A stretch of 47,794 bases of DNA from Deltaproteobacteria bacterium (lineage in GTDB: Bacteria > Desulfobacterota > Syntrophia > Syntrophales > UBA2210). The notes beneath the pieces were generated by a model. It saw only the letters and a program-made list of their open reading frames with translations, was not told the origin of the DNA and searched no databases. The stretch covers positions 1-47,794 of the forward strand of contig JAFGBH010000037.1 of the NCBI GenBank assembly GCA_016933215.1. Reading direction: 5' to 3'. Position 1 is the first letter of the stretch. Every line of letters starts with the position of its first letter. The position numbers were made by a program, and so were the translations under genes. This document shows positions 11,585 through 43,954 of this stretch, piece by piece.

Positions 11585-11993
11585 CACAGATGACCCGCCC
11601 CATGAACCCATCGGACGTGGGAGTGATTCGTACATGATGATAGGTGACGGCCTTTATCTCTGTATTTATACCGTGCTTTTTCGGATCGAAGATCTCTCCT
11701 TCCGCCTCTCCCGAGAGTGAATGGTCGTCCAGTTCGTAAACGGCGAAGCGGCGTAGTAAGAATCCTTCGATATGGAAGAGAGAGAGTAGTTCCCTCATGA
11801 AATTGACCAGCAGATCTTCACGGTCCGAACCCTCAACTGAAACCGTTCTTTTTTCTCTCATCGCGATGCCGCCTATATCCGTTATCGTGTCAAAGAGGGC
11901 AAAAGCGGCATTGGAAAAGAGTTCCCTTTCGTCCCGTCCGTATATTTCCAGACCGAGATCGGCGGTATGATCAAATGTCCTGTATCGTTCCAT
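11577..11993 (-). CDS. Archease, RtcB activator
   Basis: A 138-residue archease. It shows the conserved N-terminal HTADLGLEIYG with the metal-binding aspartate, a central LLVNFMRELLSLFH and the C-terminal KAVTYHHVRI. Archease speeds RtcB turnover and its guanylation and widens nucleotide use. The ATG at 11993 shares its A with the TGA of gyrA (TGATG), so translation is coupled to gyrase; the GTG three bases earlier is less likely. Its stop overlaps rtcB by eight bases. Confidence 0.92.
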   Translation of the reverse strand: MERYRTFDHTADLGLEIYGRDERELFSNAAFALFDTITDIGGIAMREKRTVSVEGSDREDLLVNFMRELLSLFHIEGFLLRRFAVYELDDHSLSGEAEGEIFDPKKHGINTEIKAVTYHHVRITPTSDGFMGRVICDV

Positions 11994-14497
11994 CACACGA
12001 CTTCTTCAGGCTGCTCTTCCTCCGGAACCGGACCATTTTCGTCTGAGGTTTCCTCAAAGGGCCCGCTCTCCTCCTCCCTCTCGGCCCTGGCAAGTCCAAC
12101 GAATCGTTCATCCTCATCGAGCCCTATCAGTTTTACACCCTGGGTACTTCTATGCAGGAGGGAAATTTCGTCCACCCTCATTCGAATTATCTTCCCCGAA
12201 TCACTGATCAGGATCACATCTTCGTCTCCCACAACCTGCTTGATTCCCGAGACATATCCGATCTTCGGTACCGTCTTCAGGTTGATGATACCCTTTCCTC
12301 CCCTTGACTGGACCCTGTATTCCTTGATCTCTGTCCTTTTGCCGTAGCCGTTCTCCGACACGGTCAAGATGGAATTCGTCTCCCCCAGTATCTCCATGCC
12401 TATGACGGAATCATCCTTCACCATCCTGATTCCCGTGACGCCCCGGGAGGTTCTTCCTATGGGTCTGGCATCGGTTTCCTTGAACCGGATCGCCTTTCCC
12501 ATCCTGGTGCCGAGAAAGATATCCTGATTCCCGTCGGTGAGCCTTACATCGATCAGTTCATCGCCTTCATCCATCGTGATGGCAATGATTCCCCCCGCAC
12601 GGGGATGGGAATACGCCATAAGCTTGGTCTTCTTGATAATCCCCCGTTTCGTGGCCATAACCACATATTTGTCCTCGACAAATTCCGTGACGGGAAGGAC
12701 GGCGCTTATCTTCTCACCGCTCGATATTCCGATGAGGTTGACGATAGCCTTTCCCTTCGCTGCACGTCCGGCCTGTGGAATCTGGTATATCTTGAGCCAG
12801 TGCACCCGTCCCGTATTCGTGAAGAAAAGAATATGGCTGTGCGTCGAGGCCACAAAGAGCTTCTCCACAAAATCGTCTTCCTTCGTTCCCATCCCTACCT
12901 TGCCACGGCCGCCGCGATGCTGGCTGCGATAGAGACTGACGGGGTTTCTCTTGATATAGGCCTGATGGGTAATGGTGACCACCATATTTTCCTCGACGAT
13001 CATATCCTCGATATCGATTTCCTCGCTGTCGAGAACGATCTCTGTCCTCCTCACATCGCCGTAGCGTTTTTGAATATCTTCCAGCTCTTCTACGATAATG
13101 TTCAGTATCTTCCGGGGATCTGCCAGAATACCCTCCAGCTTCCTGACAAGGGCCGTGATTTCAGTGTGTTCCTCCCGTATCTTGTCCCTCTCCAGGCCCG
13201 TCAGTCTCTGAAGTCGCATCTCCAGTATGGCCCGTGCCTGGATCTCGCTCAATCCGAACCGGGAACAGAGGGCCGTTTCAGCTTCTTTCGCGTTCGCCGA
13301 CCCCTTGATAACGGCGATGACCTCGTCAATATTATCGAGGGCAATGATCAGGCCTTCCAGTATATGGAGTCTCTCCCGCGCTCTCGCGAGATCGAACATG
13401 GTCCTTCTCGTGACAACCTGTTTCCTGAAATTAATAAAACTTTGAAGGAGCTGCTTCAGGTTGAAGATCTTTGGCTGACCGTTTTCTATGGCAAGCATGA
13501 TAATGCCGAAACTTGACTGCATCTGTGTGTGTTTGTAGAGTTGGTTGAGGATAACCCCGGAGATCTCATCGCGCTTCAGGTCAATGACGATGCGCATCCC
13601 TTCCCTGTCCGATTCGTCTCTCAAGTCAGCAATTCCGGTTATCCTCTTCTCCTTCACCAGATCGGAGATCTTTTCGATAAGGGATGCCTTGTTCACCATA
13701 TAGGGAATTTCCGTGATGACGATGCTCTCCCTATCGTTCCGCGCGTTTCTCTCTATGATGGCCCGTGCACGGACCCTGATTATACCCCTTCCCGTCCTAT
13801 AGGCCTGTATGATGCCCTGTTTTCCATTGATGAAACCGGCCGTTGGAAAATCGGGACCCTTGATAAAGAGCATGAGGTCGTCAATCGAAAGCTCGGGATT
13901 CTGTATGAGTTCGATGATGCCGTCAACGACCTCGGTCAGATTATGGGGAGGTATGTTGGTAGTCACACCCACGGCTATTCCGGACGAGCCGTTTAAGAGA
14001 AGGGCCGGTATCTTGGCGGGAAGTATGACCGGTTCCTTGAGAGATTCGTCATAATTTGGAATAAAATCAACGGTTTCCTTTTCCAGATCAGCCAGAAGTT
14101 CCTCGGTGATCCGCGCCATCCGTATCTCCGTATATCTCATGGCCGCCGGGGGATCACCGTCCACAGACCCGAAATTGCCCTGGCCATCGACAAGGGGATA
14201 GCGCATGGAGAAATCCTGGGCCATTCTCACGATAGTATCATAGGCGGCCTGATCGCCATGGGGATGATATTTACCGATGATATCGCCCACAATTCTTGCC
14301 GATTTCTTATAGGGTCTGTTCCAGCGGTTACCGAGGTCCGACATGGCAAAGAGGGCCCTTCTGTGAACCGGTTTCAGGCCGTCCCTGACGTCGGGGATAG
14401 CACGACCGACGATCACGCTCATGGCATAATCCATATAGGATTTTTTCATCTCTGCTTCTATTGTAACCGGCATATTACGCTGGTACAGCTGATTCAT
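11993..14497 (-). CDS. gyrA: DNA gyrase subunit A
   Basis: An 834-residue GyrA, the DNA-cleaving and wrapping subunit of gyrase. The catalytic tyrosine is Y122 in [10 protein letters not shown]. The C-terminal domain contains the GyrA-box-like QSRGGKG and further beta-pinwheel blades, and an acidic tail follows. Numbering through the quinolone region matches E. coli: [10 protein letters not shown] covers 78-87, with Gln at 83 where Ser, Thr or Ala is usual, and Asp at 87. The gene lies 117 bases after gyrB on the same strand and its stop overlaps the archease start. Confidence 0.97.
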
Positions 14498-14614
14498 TCT
14501 ATCCTCCTAACAATAAAAAGCACTGCACTATCAGTGTCAAGCTGCTTTGCGAATTTAATCGACCAGGGATAAACAGACAGGCAAGGCATGAATGCGCTAT
14601 TGCTCTCACTCTTC

Positions 14615-17026
<2,412 letters not shown>

Positions 17027-17030
17027 CTAA

Positions 17031-18155
17031 CTACTCCTCCCTTAATTTTATCGGCATCACGATACACATGTAATTTTTATTCTCTATCGGCTGAATGACG
17101 CCGGGACCTTCTTTTCCCCTCATCATTAAAGAAATGGTATCTTCGTGAATAACATCAATGGCATCGATAAGATACCTCACATTATATCCCACCGTCATAT
17201 TTTCACCCTGATAGGATATATCAATCTCATCCTTTGCCTCTCCCACATCGGGATTGATAGAACTGAGGTGGACCTTGCCTCCGGAAACCTCTATTTTCAC
17301 ACCGCTGAATCTTTCACTTGACATAACGCTCATCCTTTTCAACGAGCGCAGCATCTTGTCCCGGTCAATATGTATGTCCGTCCCATCATCCTTGGGCATC
17401 ACCTTCTTATAATCGGGATAATCGGCATCGATAAGCATGACCCTTAGTATGGTGCTGTCTTTTTTAAAGACACAGGCCCTGCGATCCCTGATCGCCATCT
17501 CGATATACTCGTTTCCGTCTTCGACAAGCTTCCGTATCTCGCTGACCCCTTTTCTCGGAATAATAATCCCCTCCATATCTCCATGAATAGAATCCTCATC
17601 CCCTATATCCATCGTGACAATCGACAACCGGTGACCATCGGTAGCCACCATCCCGACCTTACCCCCCTTGCATTCAAAATAAACGCCGTTGAGACCGGGT
17701 CTCATTTCATCGGTAGAGATGGCAAACATGGTTTTACCGATCATCTCCTTGAACATATCACTCTTCATCCTGAAGAAACCTTCATCCGCCTCTTCAACAA
17801 CCTCGGGATAATCATCTGCCGGAATGCCGGGAATTCTATAGGCAACCTTGTCACAGGTAATATTAACCCAGTTGTTATCGAGTTTTTTGAAATCGATAAC
17901 GTCTCCTTCTATCTCCCGCAGCATCTCCGATAATTTCCGCGCCGCCACCGTAATTTCACCCGGTACCTTCACCGCTGCTTCATAATCGGCGACCAGTCCT
18001 ATTTCCCTGTCTGTTGCCACCATCCTGACTTTATTCTCCCCGGCACTGAGAAGTATATTATTCAGTATCGGTATGGTTGTTTTTCTCTCTACAATACCAA
18101 GTGTTCTTTGAACCCCTGCCAGGAAAAGATTTCTATCCATAGAAAATTCCATCAT
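17031..18155 (-). CDS. dnaN: DNA polymerase III sliding clamp (beta subunit)
   Basis: The 374-residue clamp encircles DNA and tethers polymerase III. It has the expected three-domain length, with TTIPILNNILLSA in domain I, the conserved GLNGVYFE in domain II, and the C-terminal ending VMPIKL, which forms part of the peptide-binding cleft. It lies 129 bases after dnaA and directly before gyrB. recF, often placed between dnaN and gyrB, is absent. Confidence 0.96.
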   Translation of the reverse strand: MMEFSMDRNLFLAGVQRTLGIVERKTTIPILNNILLSAGENKVRMVATDREIGLVADYEAAVKVPGEITVAARKLSEMLREIEGDVIDFKKLDNNWVNITCDKVAYRIPGIPADDYPEVVEEADEGFFRMKSDMFKEMIGKTMFAISTDEMRPGLNGVYFECKGGKVGMVATDGHRLSIVTMDIGDEDSIHGDMEGIIIPRKGVSEIRKLVEDGNEYIEMAIRDRRACVFKKDSTILRVMLIDADYPDYKKVMPKDDGTDIHIDRDKMLRSLKRMSVMSSERFSGVKIEVSGGKVHLSSINPDVGEAKDEIDISYQGENMTVGYNVRYLIDAIDVIHEDTISLMMRGKEGPGVIQPIENKNYMCIVMPIKLREE

Positions 18156-18284
18156 GACACCTACCTTTATTATTTAGTAAAAAAGATATTTAGTAGTAAC
18201 AATAGAGACTGTTGATATGTTAACAGCCAACTCTACCTTCCTGTTTTACTCATTTTTTTTACCAATATTTCTGTTATCTACCTG
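18156..18284. other. AT-rich dnaA-dnaN intergenic segment
   Basis: This 129-base gap is very AT-rich with T and A tracts and the partly symmetric TGTTGATATGTTAACAG. Only poor DnaA-box matches (such as TTATCTACC) were found. It may act as an unwinding element or simply hold the dnaN promoter. No terminator was seen after dnaA. Confidence 0.35.
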
Positions 18285-19625
18285 TTAGGATTTTGTTTGC
18301 AACGTATCCTCTATTTCTTCCACAATCCTTTTTACTTCAATATCCGTATTTACTATTTTTTTGACCTTATTGGTTGAATATATCACCGTTGAATGATCTC
18401 TTCCCCCTACCTTACTTCCTATGTCAGGAAAAGAGAGATCGGTCAGTTGTCTCGATATGTACATAACTATCTGCCGTGGTAAGATGAGGTTTTTATTTTT
18501 CTTTTGAGATTTTATATCCGAGACCTTCATGTTGAATTTTAACGCGACGACCTTTATGATTTCATCAACCGTTATCTTTTTACCCTGTCTCTGTTTGAGG
18601 AGGTTTTTGAAAACCTCTTTTACCACATCGATATCCGTTTCCCTTCCCGTAAGCGATGAGTAAGCAGCTACTCTGGTAAGCATACCTTCCAGTTCCCTTA
18701 TATTGGAGTCAGCCACCGAAGCTATATAGTGGGTGACATCACTCGAGATGTTCATATTGTTTTCGTAAGCCTTTTTTTCGACGATTGCGACTCTGGTTTC
18801 GAGCTCCGGTGGTTGAATGTCTGCTATGAGACCCCATTCAAATCGTGATCGCAGTCTCCCCTCGAGATTTGGTATATCTTTGGGAAACTTATCGCTTGTC
18901 ACTACGATCTGTTTACCCGAATCGTGAAGGGTGTTGAAGGTGTGGAAAAACTCCTCCTGTGTCCTGTCCTTACCGGCGATGAACTGAATATCGTCAATCA
19001 GGAGAAAATCTATCTTTCTGAACTTTTCCCTGAAATTGGGCATCTTATCATAACGGATGGAATTGATGAGTTCATTCATGAACTGCTCGGCCGATACATA
19101 GAGAACGCTTTTGTCGGTATGAATGGTGTATGTGTGAAGACCGATGGCGTTTATCAGATGGGTTTTGCCAAGACCGACCCCCCCGTATATGAAAAGCGGA
19201 TTGTAGTTTGATGCCGGTTGTTCAGCTACAGAGATGGCGGCAGCATGGGCAAACTGATTTGACCCACCGACAATAAACCGTTCAAAACTGTAATTCGGGT
19301 TGAGCGAGGGGTGTAACTTCTGAGCTGCCGGGCTTTTCTTTACCTTTTTTTTCTTTTCCTCTATCGGGATCGGTGCAACCGAATCGTCTTTCTTCACGAG
19401 AAAATTTATATTGACGATGGTGCCAATAACACCGGTGAGGGCACCGTTTATTATAGAAAGATAATTTTCTATAAGCCACTCCTTGAAGAATTTATTTGGT
19501 ACCGAAAGGTATATATTATTCTCCTCTATGGAGTAGATTCTAATAGGCCTTATCCAGGTATCAAAGTTCTGCTGGCTTATCTTTTCTTTAATAATGTTGG
19601 TTCCTTCAGCCCATATAGATTCCAA
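18285..19625 (-). CDS. dnaA: Chromosomal replication initiator DnaA
   Basis: DnaA binds DnaA boxes at oriC and melts the origin with ATP. The 446-residue product has the N-terminal helicase-loading domain, the AAA+ core with Walker A GGVGLGKTHL near 147-156 and Walker B FLLIDDIQF, and the DNA-binding domain with the signature GGRDHSTVIYS near 408-418. The ATG encodes MESIWAEG. A perfect DnaA box lies 25 bases upstream, as in autoregulated dnaA promoters. It sits between parB and dnaN, all on one strand. Confidence 0.97.
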   Translation of the reverse strand: MESIWAEGTNIIKEKISQQNFDTWIRPIRIYSIEENNIYLSVPNKFFKEWLIENYLSIINGALTGVIGTIVNINFLVKKDDSVAPIPIEEKKKKVKKSPAAQKLHPSLNPNYSFERFIVGGSNQFAHAAAISVAEQPASNYNPLFIYGGVGLGKTHLINAIGLHTYTIHTDKSVLYVSAEQFMNELINSIRYDKMPNFREKFRKIDFLLIDDIQFIAGKDRTQEEFFHTFNTLHDSGKQIVVTSDKFPKDIPNLEGRLRSRFEWGLIADIQPPELETRVAIVEKKAYENNMNISSDVTHYIASVADSNIRELEGMLTRVAAYSSLTGRETDIDVVKEVFKNLLKQRQGKKITVDEIIKVVALKFNMKVSDIKSQKKNKNLILPRQIVMYISRQLTDLSFPDIGSKVGGRDHSTVIYSTNKVKKIVNTDIEVKRIVEEIEDTLQTKS

Positions 19626-19649
19626 TTTATCAAACCCCTATAAACAGCC

Positions 19650-19669
19650 TTATCCACAACTGTTGATAA
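19650..19669. promoter_or_regulatory. DnaA box pair upstream of dnaA
   Basis: TTATCCACA at 19650-19658 matches the consensus DnaA box exactly. Two bases on, TGTTGATAA (19661-19669) is TTATCAACA on the other strand, one mismatch from consensus, so the two face each other. They lie between dnaA and parB and could serve dnaA autoregulation or form part of oriC. Only two boxes are present, so calling the whole origin here is not secure. Confidence 0.65.
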
Positions 19670-19694
19670 CGCTTTTCTAATACATTTGTCACTG

Positions 19695-19722
19695 AATAAC
19701 AACCGCGGAAGCGGTTGTTATT
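19695..19722 (-). terminator. Hairpin at the end of parB
   Basis: A perfect 12-bp inverted repeat (arms 19695-19706 and 19711-19722, loop GGAA on the plus strand, TTCC on the minus) overlaps the parB stop codon. On the minus strand no T run follows, so it may be a transcript-stabilising or weak terminating stem rather than a classical terminator. It separates parAB from the dnaA promoter. Confidence 0.5.
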
Positions 19723-20566
19723 CTTTTATTATGATATTGAGCAGCCTGTCCAGATCTTCATTGGACAGAAATCGTATCTCCAGAGTTCCGCCTCGTTTTG
19801 ATTGTCGTATATTCACCTTCGTCATGAATTTTCTGGCAAGCCTTTCCTCAATATCCAGGAGGCTGCTGCTCTTTTGCTGTTTTTTCTTTTTTCCTTCCGG
19901 GGTCGAGAGTCTCTTGACAAGCCGTTCAGTCTCCCTGACACTCAGTTTCTTTCTAAGAATTTCTTTGAGCGTCGTTATCTGCTTATCTTTCGAGTCGAGC
20001 GAAAGGAGGGACCTCCCGTGACCGGTGGAGATAGTCTTTCTTGCAAGGGCCTCTTTTGCCTCGGGAGGAAGTCGGAGGAGTCTCATAAAGTTTGCAATCG
20101 TCGTTCGATCTTTCCCGACTCGTGACGAAATTTCCTCCTGAGAAAGCTTGAATTTACCGACAAGTGTCTGATATGCCTCGGCCTCTTCGACGGGATTCAG
20201 CTCCTCGCGTTGGATGTTTTCTATGAGTGATATTTCCGCAATATCGATATCCTCGGCCTCTCTGATGATGATCGGCACATCTTTCATTCCCGCAGCCTGG
20301 GCCGCTCTCCAGCGCCTCTCACCCGCTATGATTTCGTAGCCGGAATTCGATTTTCTGACGATTATTGGCTGAATGATGCCGTTTTTCTTTATAGAGGCGA
20401 CGAGGCTCTTCTCTTCGTCCCCGTCAAATACCTTGCGTGGCTGAAACCTGTTCGGCGAGAGCTCCTCGATGCCGCACACTGAGAACATGGGTTTACCCGA
20501 GGCATCATCAACGAGATCTGTAAAGATGGCACCAAGACCCTTTCCTAACGCGTTCTTTTTGGCCAT
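19718..20566 (-). CDS. parB: Chromosome partitioning protein ParB (Spo0J)
   Basis: A 282-residue ParB that binds parS, spreads as a CTP-dependent clamp and loads condensin. The N-terminal tail KKNALGKGLGAIF is the usual ParA-stimulating segment. GERRWRAAQAAGM near 80 is the CTP-binding motif, and ENIQREELNPVEEA near 115 is highly conserved. An HTH region follows and the C-terminal dimerisation domain ends in a lysine-rich stretch. It starts one base after parA stops. A perfect parS is found at 30545. Confidence 0.95.
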   Translation of the reverse strand: MAKKNALGKGLGAIFTDLVDDASGKPMFSVCGIEELSPNRFQPRKVFDGDEEKSLVASIKKNGIIQPIIVRKSNSGYEIIAGERRWRAAQAAGMKDVPIIIREAEDIDIAEISLIENIQREELNPVEEAEAYQTLVGKFKLSQEEISSRVGKDRTTIANFMRLLRLPPEAKEALARKTISTGHGRSLLSLDSKDKQITTLKEILRKKLSVRETERLVKRLSTPEGKKKKQQKSSSLLDIEERLARKFMTKVNIRQSKRGGTLEIRFLSNEDLDRLLNIIIKE

Positions 20567-21349
20567 TTATATCCTTCCATTTTCTAATATTTCCCTGGCA
20601 AGGTTCATATACGAAAGTGCACCGCGGGAATTGATATCGTAAAGGATAATCGGAAGTCCGTGGCTTGGACTTTCAGAGAGCCTTACATTTCTGGGTATAA
20701 TCGTCTTAAAAACCTGGGACCCGAAGTATTTATTGACCTCTTCCGCCACCCTGTGAGAAAGCCGGTTTCTCGTATCGAACATGGTGAGCAGTATGCCCGC
20801 GAGCGCAAGTGTCGGGTTCAGACGCGCCTGAACAAGCTTCATCGTTTTTAAAAGTTGGCCAAGTCCCTCCAGCGCAAAGTACTCACATTGCAGAGGAATG
20901 ATGAGATGATCTGATGCAACCAGGGAATTGACGGTCAAAAATCCGAGAGAGGGCGGACAATCGATGATAATATACTCGTAAGCAGGGTCAATGCCTTTAA
21001 GGATCTTTTTGAGTCTCGTTTCCCGTTCCTGAAGCGATACAAATTCCACCTCGACACCGATAAGGTTCTGGTTCGACGGCACAACGTCGAGCGTCGGTAT
21101 ATCGGTAGAAAAAACAGTCTCTTCTATCGGAACCTTGTCGATTAATGCGTGATAAAGATTCTTCTCCTTGACAGCTTCCTTATCGATCCCAACACCGTTG
21201 GTGGCATTTCCCTGGGGGTCGCAATCTATGAGGAGGGTTCTCTTCTCCGCTGCGGCCAGGGATGCCGAGAGGTTTATGGCCGTTGTCGTTTTGCCAACGC
21301 CACCTTTCTGATTGGCTATACATATGATTTTTTTCACTATTTGTTGCAA
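20567..21349 (-). CDS. parA: Chromosome partitioning ATPase ParA (Soj)
   Basis: A 260-residue ParA/Soj ATPase that binds DNA non-specifically and moves ParB-parS complexes. The deviant Walker A NQKGGVGKTTTAINL begins near residue 13, followed by DPQGNATNG and the Walker B IIDCPPSLG. It lacks the long N-terminal DNA-binding domain of plasmid ParAs, so it is the chromosomal type. It is 75 bases from rsmG and directly joined to parB. Confidence 0.95.
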   Translation of the reverse strand: MQQIVKKIICIANQKGGVGKTTTAINLSASLAAAEKRTLLIDCDPQGNATNGVGIDKEAVKEKNLYHALIDKVPIEETVFSTDIPTLDVVPSNQNLIGVEVEFVSLQERETRLKKILKGIDPAYEYIIIDCPPSLGFLTVNSLVASDHLIIPLQCEYFALEGLGQLLKTMKLVQARLNPTLALAGILLTMFDTRNRLSHRVAEEVNKYFGSQVFKTIIPRNVRLSESPSHGLPIILYDINSRGALSYMNLAREILENGRI

Positions 21350-22153: not shown

Positions 22154-22948
22154 GTGCAACAGCAAAAGGAGGTTGACATATATCAAATGCAGGCATGGGC
22201 GAGGCTTGAAAATGTCACCATAGTTCTCAAGGGGCCCAAGTATCCCGGTAATATCGGTTCCGTCGCGAGGTGTGCAAAGAACATGGGGATTGAAAAGATA
22301 GTGGTCGTCGGCGGGTCCGAATACGACAGGGAAGAGATAAATCGCATGTCGACACACCTCGCAGCTGACGTGGTTGAGAACATTGAATACCATGAAGACC
22401 TGCGGGAGGCGCTCGCTCCTTTTCGATATATCGTCGGGACGACGGCGCGGCGCGGAAACACTAACCTGAAAAGGTCGATAACGGATCCCCGGGAAATGGC
22501 ACAGGCAATTGCCCCGATAGTCAAAAAAAATGAGGTCGGGTTATTGTTCGGACCCGAAGACAGGGGGCTAACGAACAGCGAATTGAAATACTGCGACATA
22601 CTGGTCAGTATCCCCACATCGGAACGGATGCGTTCGATAAACCTCTCCCATTCCGTCATGATAATTGCCTACGAGGTCTTTACGGCGTCTTTTGGATCGA
22701 ATTCGAGCTTTACCCCCAAACTCGCAACATCTGCCGAAAAAGAGGGGATGTATGACCATATGCAGGAGATCCTCATGAAGATGAATTACATATATCCAGA
22801 AAGTCCCCACTATGCGATGACCAGTATACGGAATTTATTTTCAAGGCTCAATCTCACCGCGAGGGATGTGAAAATTATCAGGGGTGTCTGCCGGCAGATC
22901 AACCTCTACGGCAGGGGAAAAACAAAAAACTTGACTTTACCCATGTAG
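22154..22948 (+). CDS. trmJ: TrmJ-type SPOUT RNA methyltransferase
   Basis: A 264-residue SPOUT methyltransferase of the TrmH family, group 1. The start motif VLKGPKYPGNIGSVARCAKNMG, the FGPEDRGLTNSEL knot motif near 136 and LNLSHSVMIIAYE match TrmJ, which forms 2'-O-methyl at tRNA position 32. The C-terminal RNLFSRLNLTARDVKIIRGVCRQI is the usual dimer helix region. The start is uncertain: GTG 22154 has AAGGA five bases before it, while ATG 22187 has AGGAGG 15 bases before it. Assignment as TrmJ is by similarity; it could modify another RNA. Confidence 0.85.
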   Translation: MQQQKEVDIYQMQAWARLENVTIVLKGPKYPGNIGSVARCAKNMGIEKIVVVGGSEYDREEINRMSTHLAADVVENIEYHEDLREALAPFRYIVGTTARRGNTNLKRSITDPREMAQAIAPIVKKNEVGLLFGPEDRGLTNSELKYCDILVSIPTSERMRSINLSHSVMIIAYEVFTASFGSNSSFTPKLATSAEKEGMYDHMQEILMKMNYIYPESPHYAMTSIRNLFSRLNLTARDVKIIRGVCRQINLYGRGKTKNLTLPM

Positions 22949-23070: not shown

Positions 23071-24228
23071 ATGGAAAAGACATTTTCTTTTACGGGAGCA
23101 AAAAAGATCGTCTTCGGATGCGGTTCTTTTGAAAAGCTCGGTGAGTATATCGACGAACTGGGGGGGAAGCGCCCCATGGTAGTGATCGATAAAAATCTTG
23201 CCGATGCCGGCTATCGGGAAAAGATAGCAGCGTTTTTTGAAGGCATCGGTATGACCTATGAGCTCTATGACCGGGTTGAAGCAGAGCCCCCGCTGGAGTT
23301 AGCCGACGAGGGTGCGAAGGTAGCACTGAAGAAAAAATCTGATATTGTGATAGGAATAGGGGGAGGGAGCGCGATGGATACGGCAAAGGCCATATCCGTA
23401 ATCGCCGCAAACAAAGGAAAAGCCAAGGATTATTTAGGCTTGAATAATATTCCAGGACCCGGTCTTCCGAAGATAATGATACCGACCACGGCCGGTACCG
23501 GGAGCGAAGTCACCTTTACCTCGGTCTTTATAAGGGGTGATTTAAAGAAGAAAGAGGGGATGAACAGCCCCTATCTCTACCCAGAGATAGCGCTTCTCGA
23601 TCCGGTCTTAACCCTGAGCGTGCCTTCAGCAGTGACGGCATCAACCGGAGTGGATGCCTTCTGTCATGCCCTGGAATCATATACATCGAAAAATTCGAGC
23701 CCCATGAGTGAGATGTTTTCCCTCGAGGCGATGGACCTCATTGCATCGAGCCTCCGAACCTGTGTGCATAATGGTGATGATATCGCTGCCCGTGAGGCAA
23801 TGTTGCTGGGCAGTTTATATGCAGGACTGGGGCTTGCAAATGCGGGAGTTACCGCCGTGCATTCGCTTTCCTATCCCCTCGGCGGAAAGTACGGAATCCC
23901 TCACGGAATGGCGAATACGGTACTCCTCCCCGCGGTTATGCAGTTCAACCTTCCCGGTGCAATCGAGAAACTCGCCGTGGTTGCCGAGATTATGGGGGAG
24001 GTTGTGGAGGATCTCTCCCCCCGCGAGGCGGCGGACATGGCCGTTGGTGCCGTCGAGGCACTGATCCATGATTGTGACATCAATGACACCCTCGAGACCT
24101 TGGGCGTGGAAAGGAAAGATTTTCCGGAACTTGCGGAGATGGCCATGACCGTTGCCCGGCCGCTGGCGAACAATCCGCGCACGGTAACGGTAGAGGATGC
24201 CATAGAGATATATGAGGATGCCTTTTAA
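23071..24228 (+). CDS. kdnB: Kdo C8 alcohol dehydrogenase-like enzyme (KdnB type)
   Basis: A 385-residue group III (iron/zinc) alcohol dehydrogenase. The nucleotide motif GIGGGSAMD is at about 95-103, and metal ligands are D195, H199, H264 and H278. ATG 23071 has GGGGAA six bases before it; the TTG at 23053 is less likely. Alone it would be an ordinary metal-dependent dehydrogenase. It is followed by a PLP aminotransferase, hldD and kdsB. In Shewanella oneidensis, KdnB of this family oxidises Kdo at C8 and KdnA aminates the product to give 8-amino-Kdo. The assignment rests mainly on this context. Confidence 0.75.
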   Translation: MEKTFSFTGAKKIVFGCGSFEKLGEYIDELGGKRPMVVIDKNLADAGYREKIAAFFEGIGMTYELYDRVEAEPPLELADEGAKVALKKKSDIVIGIGGGSAMDTAKAISVIAANKGKAKDYLGLNNIPGPGLPKIMIPTTAGTGSEVTFTSVFIRGDLKKKEGMNSPYLYPEIALLDPVLTLSVPSAVTASTGVDAFCHALESYTSKNSSPMSEMFSLEAMDLIASSLRTCVHNGDDIAAREAMLLGSLYAGLGLANAGVTAVHSLSYPLGGKYGIPHGMANTVLLPAVMQFNLPGAIEKLAVVAEIMGEVVEDLSPREAADMAVGAVEALIHDCDINDTLETLGVERKDFPELAEMAMTVARPLANNPRTVTVEDAIEIYEDAF

Positions 24229-24259
24229 AAGAGCAATTGACTGAACGTGGAGGAGAAAA

Positions 24260-25462
24260 ATGGCAGGATCTGAGCTTATTGGAAGAGAAGAGATGAAGGA
24301 AGTCATGGATGTCCTGGAAACGGGAGTGTTCGCGAGATACGAGTTTGATAACGAGAGAAAGGGCATCTACAAGGTGAAGGAGTTTGAAGAGGCCTTTGCA
24401 AAATACCTCGGCTGTAACCACAGCCTCGGTGTGACCTCCGGTTCGGCCGCACTCAAGGTGGCGATGACGGCACTTGATATCGGCCCCGGAGATGAAGTAA
24501 TCGTGCCGGCCTTTGATTTTATTGCCACCTACGAAGCGGTGCTTGAAGTGGGGGCCATCCCCATCATGACCGATATAGACGATTCACTGAATTTAGATCC
24601 TGTGGCTTTAGAAGAGAGGATAACTCCCTATACGAAGGCGGTTATCCCCGTCCATATGTGCGGGGCACCGGCGAATATTGAAGAGATCATCAACGTCGCA
24701 AAACGCCACAAGCTTCTGGTCCTCGAGGACAATGCGCAGGCCTGCGGAGGGAGTTATAAAGGCAGGAAACTCGGCACGTTCGGCGATATGGGGATTTTGA
24801 GTTTTGATTATTATAAAACCATGACCACCGGCGAGGGGGGGATGGTGATCACGAACGACAAGGGACTGTACGATCGGTCCGACTGGTATCACGATCACGG
24901 CCATGATCACAACCCGAACGTGGGAAGGGGTCTCGAAGGGAGAACCATTCTCGGGTTCAATTTTCGGATGAATGAATTCCAGGGCGCCGTCGGTCTGGCA
25001 CAGCTGAGAAAACTCGACTATATCATCGGCGAGCAGAGGAAAAACAAGGCGGCCATAAAGGAGGCACTCGCCGACGTACCGGGAGCAGGGTTCAGAAAAC
25101 TGTTCGATCCCGATGGTGATACCGCGACCTTTCTGGGATTTAATCTTCCCGATGAGCCGACGACACGGAAATTCCAGAGCGTTCTGAAAGAGGAGGGTGT
25201 CGATACGATTTACTACAAGGATAATGCATGGCATTACGCGCCGAGATGGGAACATCTTATTGCCTGGTCAACGGCGAATTCGAAACAATACCCCTTCACC
25301 TCGCCCGATTATAAGGGAAAAGTGGAATATACCACCGATCATATCCCCCATGCCGAGGAGATACTCGGAAGAACACTCTTTATGATCATACCGGTCAAGA
25401 TGGCGGACGAGAGGCTGGAAGCAATACGGGGAGGGATTCAAAGGGCGGCAAAGGCGCTTTAG
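24260..25462 (+). CDS. kdnA: PLP aminotransferase for 8-amino-Kdo (KdnA type)
   Basis: A 400-residue DegT/DnrJ/EryC1-family sugar aminotransferase. The PLP-binding lysine is K186 in SFDYYKTMTTGEGG. Other family motifs are GVTSGSAALKVAM near 57, the PAFDFIATYEAVL loop, DNAQACGG near 157 and the GFNFRMNEFQGAVG segment. It would transfer an amino group, probably from glutamate, to the C8 aldehyde made by the preceding dehydrogenase. The start has GGAGG before the ATG. It lies 31 bases after kdnB and 23 before hldD. Confidence 0.8.
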   Translation: MAGSELIGREEMKEVMDVLETGVFARYEFDNERKGIYKVKEFEEAFAKYLGCNHSLGVTSGSAALKVAMTALDIGPGDEVIVPAFDFIATYEAVLEVGAIPIMTDIDDSLNLDPVALEERITPYTKAVIPVHMCGAPANIEEIINVAKRHKLLVLEDNAQACGGSYKGRKLGTFGDMGILSFDYYKTMTTGEGGMVITNDKGLYDRSDWYHDHGHDHNPNVGRGLEGRTILGFNFRMNEFQGAVGLAQLRKLDYIIGEQRKNKAAIKEALADVPGAGFRKLFDPDGDTATFLGFNLPDEPTTRKFQSVLKEEGVDTIYYKDNAWHYAPRWEHLIAWSTANSKQYPFTSPDYKGKVEYTTDHIPHAEEILGRTLFMIIPVKMADERLEAIRGGIQRAAKAL

Positions 25463-25485
25463 CATATTCCAAGGAGCTGAAATCA

Positions 25486-26460
25486 ATGATAATCGTAACA
25501 GGAGGCGCGGGATTTATCGGGAGCGCCATTGTATGGAAATTAAACAACGAGGGGATCGATGACATTATCGTGGTCGACGACCTGGGCACATCTGAAAAGT
25601 GGAAAAATCTCGTTAACTTACGTTATAATGATTATATTCACATGGATGATTTCCTCGATATGGTCTTAGAAGATGACGTCCCCTTTTCGGTGAGCGGCAT
25701 AATTCATATGGGGGCCTGTTCATCAACCACCGAACGTGACGCCGATTACCTGATGGAAAACAATTACCGCTACAGCGTCAACCTTGCCGACTGGGCCGTA
25801 AAGAGAGCAGTTCGGTTTATCTATGCGAGCAGTGCGGCGACCTACGGTAACGGATCATTAGGGTTTTCCGATGACGCTGATGTAATGGCGGCACTCAAGC
25901 CGATCAATATGTACGGTTATTCCAAACAGCTCTTCGACCTCTGGGTTATGAGAAACAAGCTGGAGACGAAGATGGCGGGGATCAAGTTCTTTAACGTCTT
26001 CGGGCCAAACGAATACCACAAAGGTGACATGAGGAGCGTCATTCATAAGTCTTTTGGTCAGATCGCCGAGACCGGAAAGGTGCGGCTTTTTAAATCGCAC
26101 AGGCCCGAATACGGGGACGGGGAACAGAAGAGGGATTTTGTCTATGTAAAGGATTGCGTTGACGTCCTCTGGTGGTTTCTTCAGAATCGGGAAGTGAACG
26201 GTATCTTTAACCTCGGAACGGGCAAAGCGAGGACATGGAATGACCTGGTAAAGGCGGTCTTCTCCGCCACCGGAAGGGACCCTGAGATCGAATATGTCGA
26301 TATGCCGGAATCGATACGGGACCAATATCAGTACTTTACCGAAGCGAGGATGGACAAGCTCCGTCTTACGAGGTGCCCCCTTTCCTTTCATTCTCTCGAG
26401 GACGCCGTTGCCGATTATGTCAAAAAGTATCTCGCCGGGGGTGAAAAATGCCTCGGGTAA
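25486..26460 (+). CDS. hldD: ADP-L-glycero-D-manno-heptose 6-epimerase
   Basis: A 324-residue short-chain-dehydrogenase-type epimerase that makes the heptose donor of the lipopolysaccharide inner core. The NADP motif is GGAGFIG at 6-12, catalytic serine 116 is in YASSAATYG, and the YxxxK pair is Y143 and K147 in MYGYSKQ. The NVFGPNEYHKGDMRSV and FKSHRPEYGDGEQKRDFVYV segments are typical of HldD. The end overlaps kdsB by 13 bases, so the two are coupled. Confidence 0.93.
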   Translation: MIIVTGGAGFIGSAIVWKLNNEGIDDIIVVDDLGTSEKWKNLVNLRYNDYIHMDDFLDMVLEDDVPFSVSGIIHMGACSSTTERDADYLMENNYRYSVNLADWAVKRAVRFIYASSAATYGNGSLGFSDDADVMAALKPINMYGYSKQLFDLWVMRNKLETKMAGIKFFNVFGPNEYHKGDMRSVIHKSFGQIAETGKVRLFKSHRPEYGDGEQKRDFVYVKDCVDVLWWFLQNREVNGIFNLGTGKARTWNDLVKAVFSATGRDPEIEYVDMPESIRDQYQYFTEARMDKLRLTRCPLSFHSLEDAVADYVKKYLAGGEKCLG

Positions 26461-27200
26461 TCTGTATCATACCTGCCCGCTACAGTTCTTCACGGTTTGA
26501 GGGGAAACCCCTTGCTGATATTGCGGGGAAACCGATGATACAGCATGTCTATGAGCGGGTGTTACGGTCGAAATCGGTGTCCCATGTGGCGGTGGCATCG
26601 GATGATGAAAGGATACTCTCGACCGTCGAGAAGTTCGGGGGAAATGCAATATCAACCTCTGACAGGCACCGTTCGGGAACGGACAGGATTGCCGAGGCCG
26701 TTCAGTCTCTTAATCTCAAGGATTCCGATATTGTCGTCAATATACAGGGGGATCAGCCACTCTTTGTCCCTTCACAGATCGACGAGGTCGTCGCCCCTCT
26801 TCTGGACGATTCCCTGTTGGATTTCTGCACCCTTGTCTATCGGATACGGAGGGAAGAGGAAATACACCACCCGAACGCCGTGAAGGTCGTTTTCGATGAA
26901 GATCACTTTGCCCTCTACTTCTCGCGTGCTGCGATCCCCTATGTAAGGGATAAAAATAACGAGGTATCCTATTACAAACATCACGGCATATATTCATACC
27001 GAAAAGACTTTCTGGTAACCTTTACGGGGCTCCCGGAGGGATACCTTGAAAAACTGGAGGCCCTGGAGCAATTGAGGGCCCTCGAGAATGGATACAAAAT
27101 AAAGGTCGTAGAGACAGAGCACGATTCGGTGGAGGTGGATACACCTGAGGAACTTGAACGGGTACGAAAAATTCTGGCCGAAGAAGCCGTTGATAGCTGA
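26448..27200 (+). CDS. kdsB: 3-deoxy-manno-octulosonate cytidylyltransferase (Kdo or 8-amino-Kdo)
   Basis: The 250-residue enzyme activates Kdo-type sugars as CMP derivatives. It shows the N-terminal IIPARYSSSRFEGKPL, the NIQGDQPLFVP acceptor loop near 97-107 and the KHHGIYSYRKDFL segment. As the last gene after kdnB-kdnA-hldD it may prefer 8-amino-Kdo, as the Shewanella enzyme does. The sequence does not by itself settle the substrate. Its start lies inside the end of hldD. Confidence 0.93.
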   Translation: MPRVICIIPARYSSSRFEGKPLADIAGKPMIQHVYERVLRSKSVSHVAVASDDERILSTVEKFGGNAISTSDRHRSGTDRIAEAVQSLNLKDSDIVVNIQGDQPLFVPSQIDEVVAPLLDDSLLDFCTLVYRIRREEEIHHPNAVKVVFDEDHFALYFSRAAIPYVRDKNNEVSYYKHHGIYSYRKDFLVTFTGLPEGYLEKLEALEQLRALENGYKIKVVETEHDSVEVDTPEELERVRKILAEEAVDS

Positions 27201-41704: not shown

Positions 41705-43954
41705 ATGAACACGGATATACATGATTTTGATGTGATAAAGGGCGATCTTCTTCAGGTAAACACGGAAATTCTGGCCCTCTTTGAGAAGGCCAGGACGATC
41801 CCGGGTATGTCCAAATTTCCCTTCGACGGATGGGAAAAGGTGGGGCACAGCATTGAGGAACAGATCCATGACGATATACTGAGGGTCGCCGTCGTCGGTG
41901 CCATAAAATCCGGAAAGAGTACCTTTGTCAACTCCCTCTTGGGGGGAGACTACCTGAAACGGGGAGCCGGCGTTGTTACCTCCATCGTGACGCGAATCCG
42001 AAAAAGCTCCCAACTGACGGCGTCTCTCGACTTTAAAACCTGGGATGACGTCAATACAGACATGCAGCAGGCAATGATTCTCTTTCCGTCTCTGAACTGG
42101 CGTCCCGATGGCGGCGGATTTGACATACGTCGTGAGGAGGATCGCCGCGAGTTGGGAAAGGCCCTCGATTCAGTAAGTGTTGAAAAGCTCATTTCGAAGG
42201 AAACACTCGATGTAAACGGTGTATTGCTGACGTCGTATCTAAAGGGGTATGGACGTGTAAGAGAAATGATCGGCCGGAGCAGTGAATTACAGAAATTTGA
42301 AAAATCGAATTTTTCCCGGCACAAGGATTTCGTCGGTGATGATTCACTCGCCGTCTATCTGAAAGACCTGGAACTGGGGATCCCGGGCGGGGAGATTCTC
42401 GGAGAAAACATTGAAATTGCCGATTGCCAGGGAATTGATTCCCTCAACCCTCTCCACCTTGCGATGATTCAGGATTACCTCCTTCGGGCCCACCTGATCA
42501 TTTATATTTTGAGCAGCAGGACGGGAATACGTCAGGCCGATATGCGATTCCTCTCCATAATCAGGAAAATGGGTCTTATGGAAAATATCTTCTTTGTGGT
42601 GAATTGCGATTTTAACGAACATGAAGACATCGACGGCCTCAAGGCGGTTGTTGCAAGGATAAGAGAAGAAATATCAGTGGTAAAACCGGGGCCGAAACTC
42701 TTTACCTTTTCCACCCTCTTTCATCTCCTCGACGGGCTCGACGATACCATAACCCGGCGAGACCGTGTACGGATGGAGCAATGGCAAAACGAAAAGGAAT
42801 TCTCCGATTTTTCCCATAGCGAAAGGGCACGATTCCTGTCTACATTTTTTGAGAAGCTCACCCGCGACCGATTTACTCTCCTTTTGAAAAATCATGTGGA
42901 GCGTGTGGGGATCATCGCGGCCGGTCTCCATGACTGGACAGAGATCAACAATGATATCCTGAGGAAAAACACGGAGGGTGCAAAGGAGGTTTTAACGAGG
43001 ATAGAGACGGCGAGGGAAAAATTGAATCAGCAGAAATCGCTGATAAAAAACACGCTCGACGGGACCTCACAAAAGGCGAAGCGTGAACTCGGCAGGGATG
43101 TGGACAGATTTCTTGACGTCCGTTATGGCGATCTGGCCAAGGATATCAACGGATTTGTAAAGAAATATACGGTTGATTATAGCAAAAATGAGAGTGATAT
43201 TGAGGAGATGGGATTCTCAACGACACTGTATATGATATTTCAGGATTTCAAGCGGGCACTCGATCGTTATATGGCGGAGACGATAAATCCTCGATTGATA
43301 GAGTTTATAAAAAAGGAGGAGGGGAAGTTCAGGGACCTACTCGATACAACGGTCAATTCATATGACGCCCTGGTGAGGGACGTTCTGCAAAAGCATGAAG
43401 AAACCCTGAAAGGCCTCGGCATCTCATCGAGGAGTTACAGGGCGGCTGAAATGCATTCCGTTGACATGGAGGGTCTAAAGAGGCGCAATGCCCTCAGTGC
43501 TCCCCCTCTTGTTTCCACCTTTCGCTACACGGCCAAGATCCGAACGGAAGCTATCATGCGCCGCGGATTTTATAATGTTGTTAAGGTCCTGAAAAAGCTG
43601 ATGAAGAAACCGATTCAAAACGAACAGGAGGGGGAGATTTTTGCGCTGAAAGACGGGGTGAAGAGGATAAAGCAGGAAACGGAAAATTCTATCGCCTTCC
43701 ATTTGAAAGACTACAAAGAAAACCTGAAGTTTCAGTATTTGTACAAGCTTGTCGATAGTGTCTCGGAAAATCTTCTGGAAACCCTGCTCGATCGCTTCAA
43801 TGTGTTTACCACCGATATGTCGGAGATGGCGGGATTGGTGGATGCAGAGCAATCAGCCAAGGAAAAGGCCGTCGAAATATTGAAATCAATGGAAGCGGGA
43901 TCCCGGGAAGTCCTGGAGGACATATCCCGGCTGAGAGGGGAATTCGAGAGTTGA
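41705..43954 (+). CDS. Bacterial dynamin-like GTPase
   Basis: A 749-residue member of the dynamin superfamily, which remodels membranes. The P-loop is GAIKSGKST at 65-73, the conserved threonine of the G2 motif is T92 in GVVTSIVTRI, and G3 is DCQGID near 237. G4 is likely NCDF near 298. Beyond the GTPase domain (up to about 340) are long helical segments with heptad-like spacing, the expected stalk. A short basic and hydrophobic segment near 620 may touch membrane. Function could be membrane fission, repair or antiphage protection. It is a single-gene unit. Confidence 0.85.
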   Translation: MNTDIHDFDVIKGDLLQVNTEILALFEKARTIPGMSKFPFDGWEKVGHSIEEQIHDDILRVAVVGAIKSGKSTFVNSLLGGDYLKRGAGVVTSIVTRIRKSSQLTASLDFKTWDDVNTDMQQAMILFPSLNWRPDGGGFDIRREEDRRELGKALDSVSVEKLISKETLDVNGVLLTSYLKGYGRVREMIGRSSELQKFEKSNFSRHKDFVGDDSLAVYLKDLELGIPGGEILGENIEIADCQGIDSLNPLHLAMIQDYLLRAHLIIYILSSRTGIRQADMRFLSIIRKMGLMENIFFVVNCDFNEHEDIDGLKAVVARIREEISVVKPGPKLFTFSTLFHLLDGLDDTITRRDRVRMEQWQNEKEFSDFSHSERARFLSTFFEKLTRDRFTLLLKNHVERVGIIAAGLHDWTEINNDILRKNTEGAKEVLTRIETAREKLNQQKSLIKNTLDGTSQKAKRELGRDVDRFLDVRYGDLAKDINGFVKKYTVDYSKNESDIEEMGFSTTLYMIFQDFKRALDRYMAETINPRLIEFIKKEEGKFRDLLDTTVNSYDALVRDVLQKHEETLKGLGISSRSYRAAEMHSVDMEGLKRRNALSAPPLVSTFRYTAKIRTEAIMRRGFYNVVKVLKKLMKKPIQNEQEGEIFALKDGVKRIKQETENSIAFHLKDYKENLKFQYLYKLVDSVSENLLETLLDRFNVFTTDMSEMAGLVDAEQSAKEKAVEILKSMEAGSREVLEDISRLRGEFES

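Follow-up and report, generated by a model that had tools for sequence, protein, structure and literature searches.

A row of four genes on the forward strand of a Syntrophales contig (positions 23071-27200) raises the question of whether this deltaproteobacterium makes an amino-modified lipopolysaccharide (LPS) core sugar, and with which enzymes. Nearly all LPS is anchored through the sugar Kdo. Shewanella oneidensis reportedly uses a KdnA-KdnB pathway that yields 8-amino-3,8-dideoxy-manno-octulosonate (Kdo8N), with KdnB, which binds NAD tightly, as the Kdo 8-oxidase and KdnA as the transaminase.

The S. oneidensis pathway (Gattis 2013) is cited in PMC5125639, with structures 5k8b (KdnA) and 5k8c (KdnB), and the same source gives KdnB, for Shewanella, as the only characterised member of the FeADH3 group (cd08184) of alcohol dehydrogenases (ADHs). 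Kdo8N has been called a hallmark of Shewanella (PMC6357163), and LPS that contains it has been described as unlike all other known LPS (PMC3210612). The literature on Kdo8N, taken mostly from outside subscription papers, names no producer genus besides Shewanella; earlier reports may exist in the remainder.

The window analysed here is the whole of contig 24 (47,794 nucleotides) of a 2.69-Mb genome that is 98% complete. Its four genes are listed in the table together with a conserved upstream neighbour. The first-pass annotation placed a dehydrogenase and a sugar aminotransferase directly before hldD and kdsB, and this layout is borne out: gaps of 31 bp and 23 bp separate the first three genes, and hldD overlaps kdsB by 13 bp. 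Both HldD and KdsB score above the curated cut-offs of their families. The dehydrogenase, an iron-type enzyme, is called FeADH2 below.

Table. Features of the FeADH2-kdnA-hldD-kdsB row and its upstream neighbour, in window coordinates
Feature	Coordinates	Strand	Proposed role	Evidence and remarks
TrmJ-family RNA methyltransferase	22154..22948	+	Outside the pathway	Upstream neighbour conserved in Syntrophales; synteny marker
FeADH2, Fe-type (type III) alcohol dehydrogenase	23071..24228	+	Proposed Kdo 8-dehydrogenase replacing KdnB	ATG start; Pfam ADH_Fe_C 189 bits, Fe-ADH 161 bits; metal ligands D195, H199, H264, H278
KdnA, PLP-dependent aminotransferase	24260..25462	+	8-oxo-Kdo aminotransferase (function by family)	DegT 298 bits; PLP lysine K186 retained (DYYKTMTTGEGG)
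HldD	25486..26460	+	ADP-glyceromanno-heptose 6-epimerase	TIGR02197 417 bits (cut-off 275)
KdsB	26448..27200	+	Kdo (probably 8-amino-Kdo) cytidylyltransferase	TIGR00466 244 bits (cut-off 155)

The row lies near the replication origin, downstream of dnaA, dnaN, gyrB, gyrA, parA, parB and rsmG (window 11993-21349), and in many Syntrophales genomes trmJ-FeADH2-kdnA adjoins parAB-rsmG. In 49 of the 53 related loci whose upstream sequence reaches far enough, FeADH2 lies immediately 5' of kdnA on the same strand, at a median gap of ~42 bp; the arrangement is thus not a product of chance. The same linkage is seen on Omnitrophota, TA06 and Vermiphilus contigs, and a KdsB gene follows within 3.3 kb downstream in 24 of 31 related loci. 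Promoter and terminator scans of the locus gave signals near background. Elsewhere in the window, positions 41705-43954 encode a dynamin-family GTPase of 749 aa, in a bacterial genome.

In a search of solved structures, S. oneidensis KdnA is the top match to the window aminotransferase at 360 bits, versus 186 bits for perosamine synthase, the next; the two KdnAs are 47% identical over 381 residues. (PDB alignments supplied the reference sequences of S. oneidensis KdnA and KdnB.) In a 98-protein tree, all KdnA-like enzymes group as one clade apart from generic DegT aminotransferases with support of 100, and the window protein falls inside this clade. It carries the KdnA signatures RY26-27, R33, DHGHDH (212-217) and W324. 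Residues R26, Y27, R33, H215, H217 and W324 are each kept in 82-85 of 85 KdnAs and are largely absent from generic DegT enzymes. On these sequence comparisons, the aminotransferase is a KdnA, as first proposed, and by family it would transaminate 8-oxo-Kdo.

The dehydrogenase had been taken for KdnB, and this identification is ruled out by score and by tree. FeADH2 matches a methanol dehydrogenase (8zrl) at 249 bits and KdnB at only 91 bits, with 29% identity to the latter, whereas true KdnBs of other Desulfobacterota reach ~500 bits to 5k8c and 3rf7. The solved structures closest to FeADH2 are those of methanol, 1,3-propanediol and lactaldehyde dehydrogenases (8zrl, 3bfj, 1rrm; 232-249 bits). 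In a tree of 103 dehydrogenases, the KdnBs form a separate clade with support of 100. Of the 64 dehydrogenases that come from KdnA loci or KdnA-bearing genomes, 62 fall in the FeADH2 clade (support 88), as do 2 of the 15 paralogues added for comparison. By scores and tree, the window dehydrogenase and KdnB are assigned to separate subfamilies of type III ADHs. The first-pass annotation had named a grouping of the two enzymes with unrelated sugar pathways as grounds to reject its reading; KdnA does not group in this way, and the dehydrogenase does so by half.

FeADH2 and KdnB nevertheless share the type III ADH family, the D/H/H/H metal ligands and a partnership with KdnA. They differ in clade, in length (FeADH2 is ~30 residues longer) and in gene order, and they never co-occur in the sampled genomes. 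The supposed agreement with the gene order of Shewanella fails on this point: where true kdnB adjoins a Shewanella-type kdnA in the relatives read, it lies downstream, directly so in most of the Desulfobacterota loci L207-L224, whereas the window dehydrogenase lies upstream. Compared with the S. oneidensis system, the locus has a KdnA of the same clade with the same signatures, a type III ADH partner and a linked kdsB, and it differs in the dehydrogenase subfamily, in the interposed hldD and in its Syntrophales host. Relative to the methanol, propanediol and lactaldehyde enzymes, FeADH2 is set apart by its association with KdnA and KdsB instead of fermentation or diol-use genes, and by a tyrosine at the position of FucO His267. 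This tyrosine, which KdnB also has, was considered as a signature of Kdo oxidases and rejected; it is not specific, because unlinked paralogues have it too. A residue comparison of FeADH2 with KdnB and paralogues found no KdnB-specific residue in FeADH2.

We sampled 395 Desulfobacterota genomes, 91 of which have KdnA. Among these 91, FeADH2 alone is present in 59 and KdnB alone in 27; none has both, and five have neither. The Fisher value for this exclusion, 2e-18, ignores relatedness and is descriptive only. All 27 genomes with a strong KdnB have KdnA. Three of the five genomes with neither oxidase have the locus at a contig edge, one is near threshold, and the fifth is G203, described below. 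The E-value threshold by which FeADH2 was called lets paralogues through as well: an Fe-ADH that reaches this threshold occurs in 21 genomes with no KdnA, and of the 15 such enzymes put into the tree, 13 lie off the main FeADH2 clade. Because many of the genomes are metagenome assemblies, apparent gene absences may be gaps; in G003, G008 and G055, the contig breaks off at FeADH2, just where kdnA would come next.

The two dehydrogenases replace each other within lineages. KdnA is found in 53 of 60 Syntrophales genomes; 50 of the 53 have FeADH2, and one more has an FeADH2 that is truncated at a contig end. The remaining two (G036 and G052, of one genus) do not have FeADH2, and they are the only two with KdnB, which is 63% identical to that of S. 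oneidensis. In G052, a one-contig genome, this kdnB is the sole Fe-ADH gene. A second replacement is seen in family f35 (six genomes), whose KdnAs are nested in KdnA clade 2 beside those of FeADH2 users, yet whose dehydrogenase is KdnB, encoded elsewhere in the genome, away from kdnA. It is this genome-wide pattern of replacement that rescues a functional claim for the window dehydrogenase: by its distribution, FeADH2 behaves as a functional substitute for KdnB and a partner of KdnA, and would oxidise Kdo.

KdsB of the window also bears on the product. It has the GDxP, HxGIY, EQLR and VDTPE motifs of a standard KdsB, and it carries Q103, D226, S227 and E229, here termed the QDSE haplotype, where the E. 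coli enzyme has E101, P230, G231 and G233. This haplotype is found in 70 of 72 KdsBs from KdnA-bearing genomes versus 2 of 41 from KdnA-less genomes. The association is strong, yet it is support and not proof, because a tree-aware test has only two supported independent pairs and is underpowered, and because the KdsBs of L220 and L223 stand beside bona fide kdnA-kdnB yet do not have the haplotype. The four positions adjoin two motifs, GD.P and VDTP; in E. coli KdsB, the aspartates of these motifs bind magnesium. As a guess, the added glutamate could pair with the 8-amino group. QDSE is a candidate marker of amino-Kdo LPS, and KdsBs that bear it may prefer Kdo8N.

The Q103..E229 half of the haplotype also occurs in 14 of the 41 KdnA-less genomes, always together (for example, L315, L316, L321, L323 and L327), and the two positions seem to be coupled. 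A search of KdnA-less genomes with such Q..E KdsBs for a divergent KdnA returned generic DegT matches only.

An amino-Kdo cluster in a deltaproteobacterium, as first suggested, is the most likely reading of this Syntrophales locus, given the identity of KdnA and the FeADH2/KdnB replacement pattern. Very probably the cluster makes Kdo8N for the LPS inner core by way of FeADH2, KdnA and KdsB. FeADH2 would oxidise the C8 hydroxyl of Kdo to an aldehyde, in place of KdnB. KdnA would then use PLP and glutamate to transaminate this 8-oxo product, as its family does. KdsB would turn the resulting Kdo8N into CMP-Kdo8N, from which WaaA, whose family has one copy elsewhere in the source genome, would transfer the sugar to lipid A. 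HldD would supply heptose for the next core residue. A core with amino-Kdo would plausibly reduce surface charge, as the first-pass annotation had expected.

That FeADH2 instead oxidises another primary alcohol, such as that at a heptose end or of another ulosonic acid, and the KdnA-like enzyme aminates this other sugar, so that the product is not Kdo8N, is unlikely. In its favor, FeADH2 is not KdnB, hldD is interposed in many loci, and KdnAs of clade 2 are just 42-50% identical to that of S. oneidensis. However, many other loci read FeADH2-kdnA-kdsB with no hldD, and FeADH2 can adjoin kdsB with neither hldD nor kdnA between them, as in L174 and L390, where kdnA has been relocated. The signature residues of KdnA, moreover, are common to both KdnA clades. 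In G036, G052 and family f35, clade-2 KdnA is paired with a KdnB that is 57-64% identical to that of S. oneidensis; therefore, the substrate of these KdnAs should be the product of KdnB.

We consider it very improbable that FeADH2 serves ordinary fermentation, as an alcohol or aldehyde dehydrogenase co-located by chance, with another enzyme feeding KdnA. Its nearest solved structures are of such enzymes, and the source genome has six further Fe-ADH genes. Nevertheless, the linkage to kdnA is order-wide and crosses phyla, FeADH2 and KdnB exclude each other and have replaced each other twice independently, and the FeADH2 clade is largely confined to genomes with KdnA. It is harder still to credit that the four genes are relics, decayed or no longer expressed, and that the core bears ordinary Kdo, since all reading frames are intact, catalytic residues are retained, and the proteins keep 58-82% identity across Syntrophales.

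Compared with what has been described, the aminotransferase and the predicted product are known, and the different dehydrogenase and a much wider host range would be new. It is likely that dehydrogenation of Kdo at C8 has been solved twice, in the KdnB and FeADH2 lineages, and that amino-Kdo is common in Desulfobacterota rather than a hallmark of Shewanella. If so, amino-Kdo LPS would be present in ~23% of the sampled Desulfobacterota genomes, including nearly all Syntrophales, and in some Omnitrophota, TA06 and Dependentiae-like lineages; it would be widespread among sulfate reducers and syntrophs. With two dehydrogenase subfamilies for the first step, searches that use KdnB only would then miss most producers. 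Cultured relatives that carry KdnA with KdnB, and those with FeADH2, would then both be expected to have LPS that is ~1 Da lighter per Kdo.

Several loci depart from the common arrangements. In families f35 and f119 (L228, L230, L232, L246, L258 and L259), kdnA stands apart from the dehydrogenase gene and adjoins panC, in several cases also panD, in a conserved neighbourhood. In family f20 (L158 from G053 and L163 from G037), FeADH2 and HldD/KdsB occur with a KdnA-like enzyme at roughly 40% identity; the G053 copy, which keeps nearly all of the KdnA signature residues, may be a very divergent KdnA. In G203 (L377:931-2037), a clade-1 KdnA adjoins KdsB and there is no clear KdnB, and a dehydrogenase that is 35% identical to KdnB adjoins a WaaA-family gene. 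Finally, L387:3744-6107 (G133, which belongs to family f60 with eight other genomes) has a divergent pair, KdnB-like (41%) and KdnA-like (33%), head to tail and next to an apparent cytidylyltransferase gene. This pair is perhaps a third version of the system that acts on another ulosonic acid.
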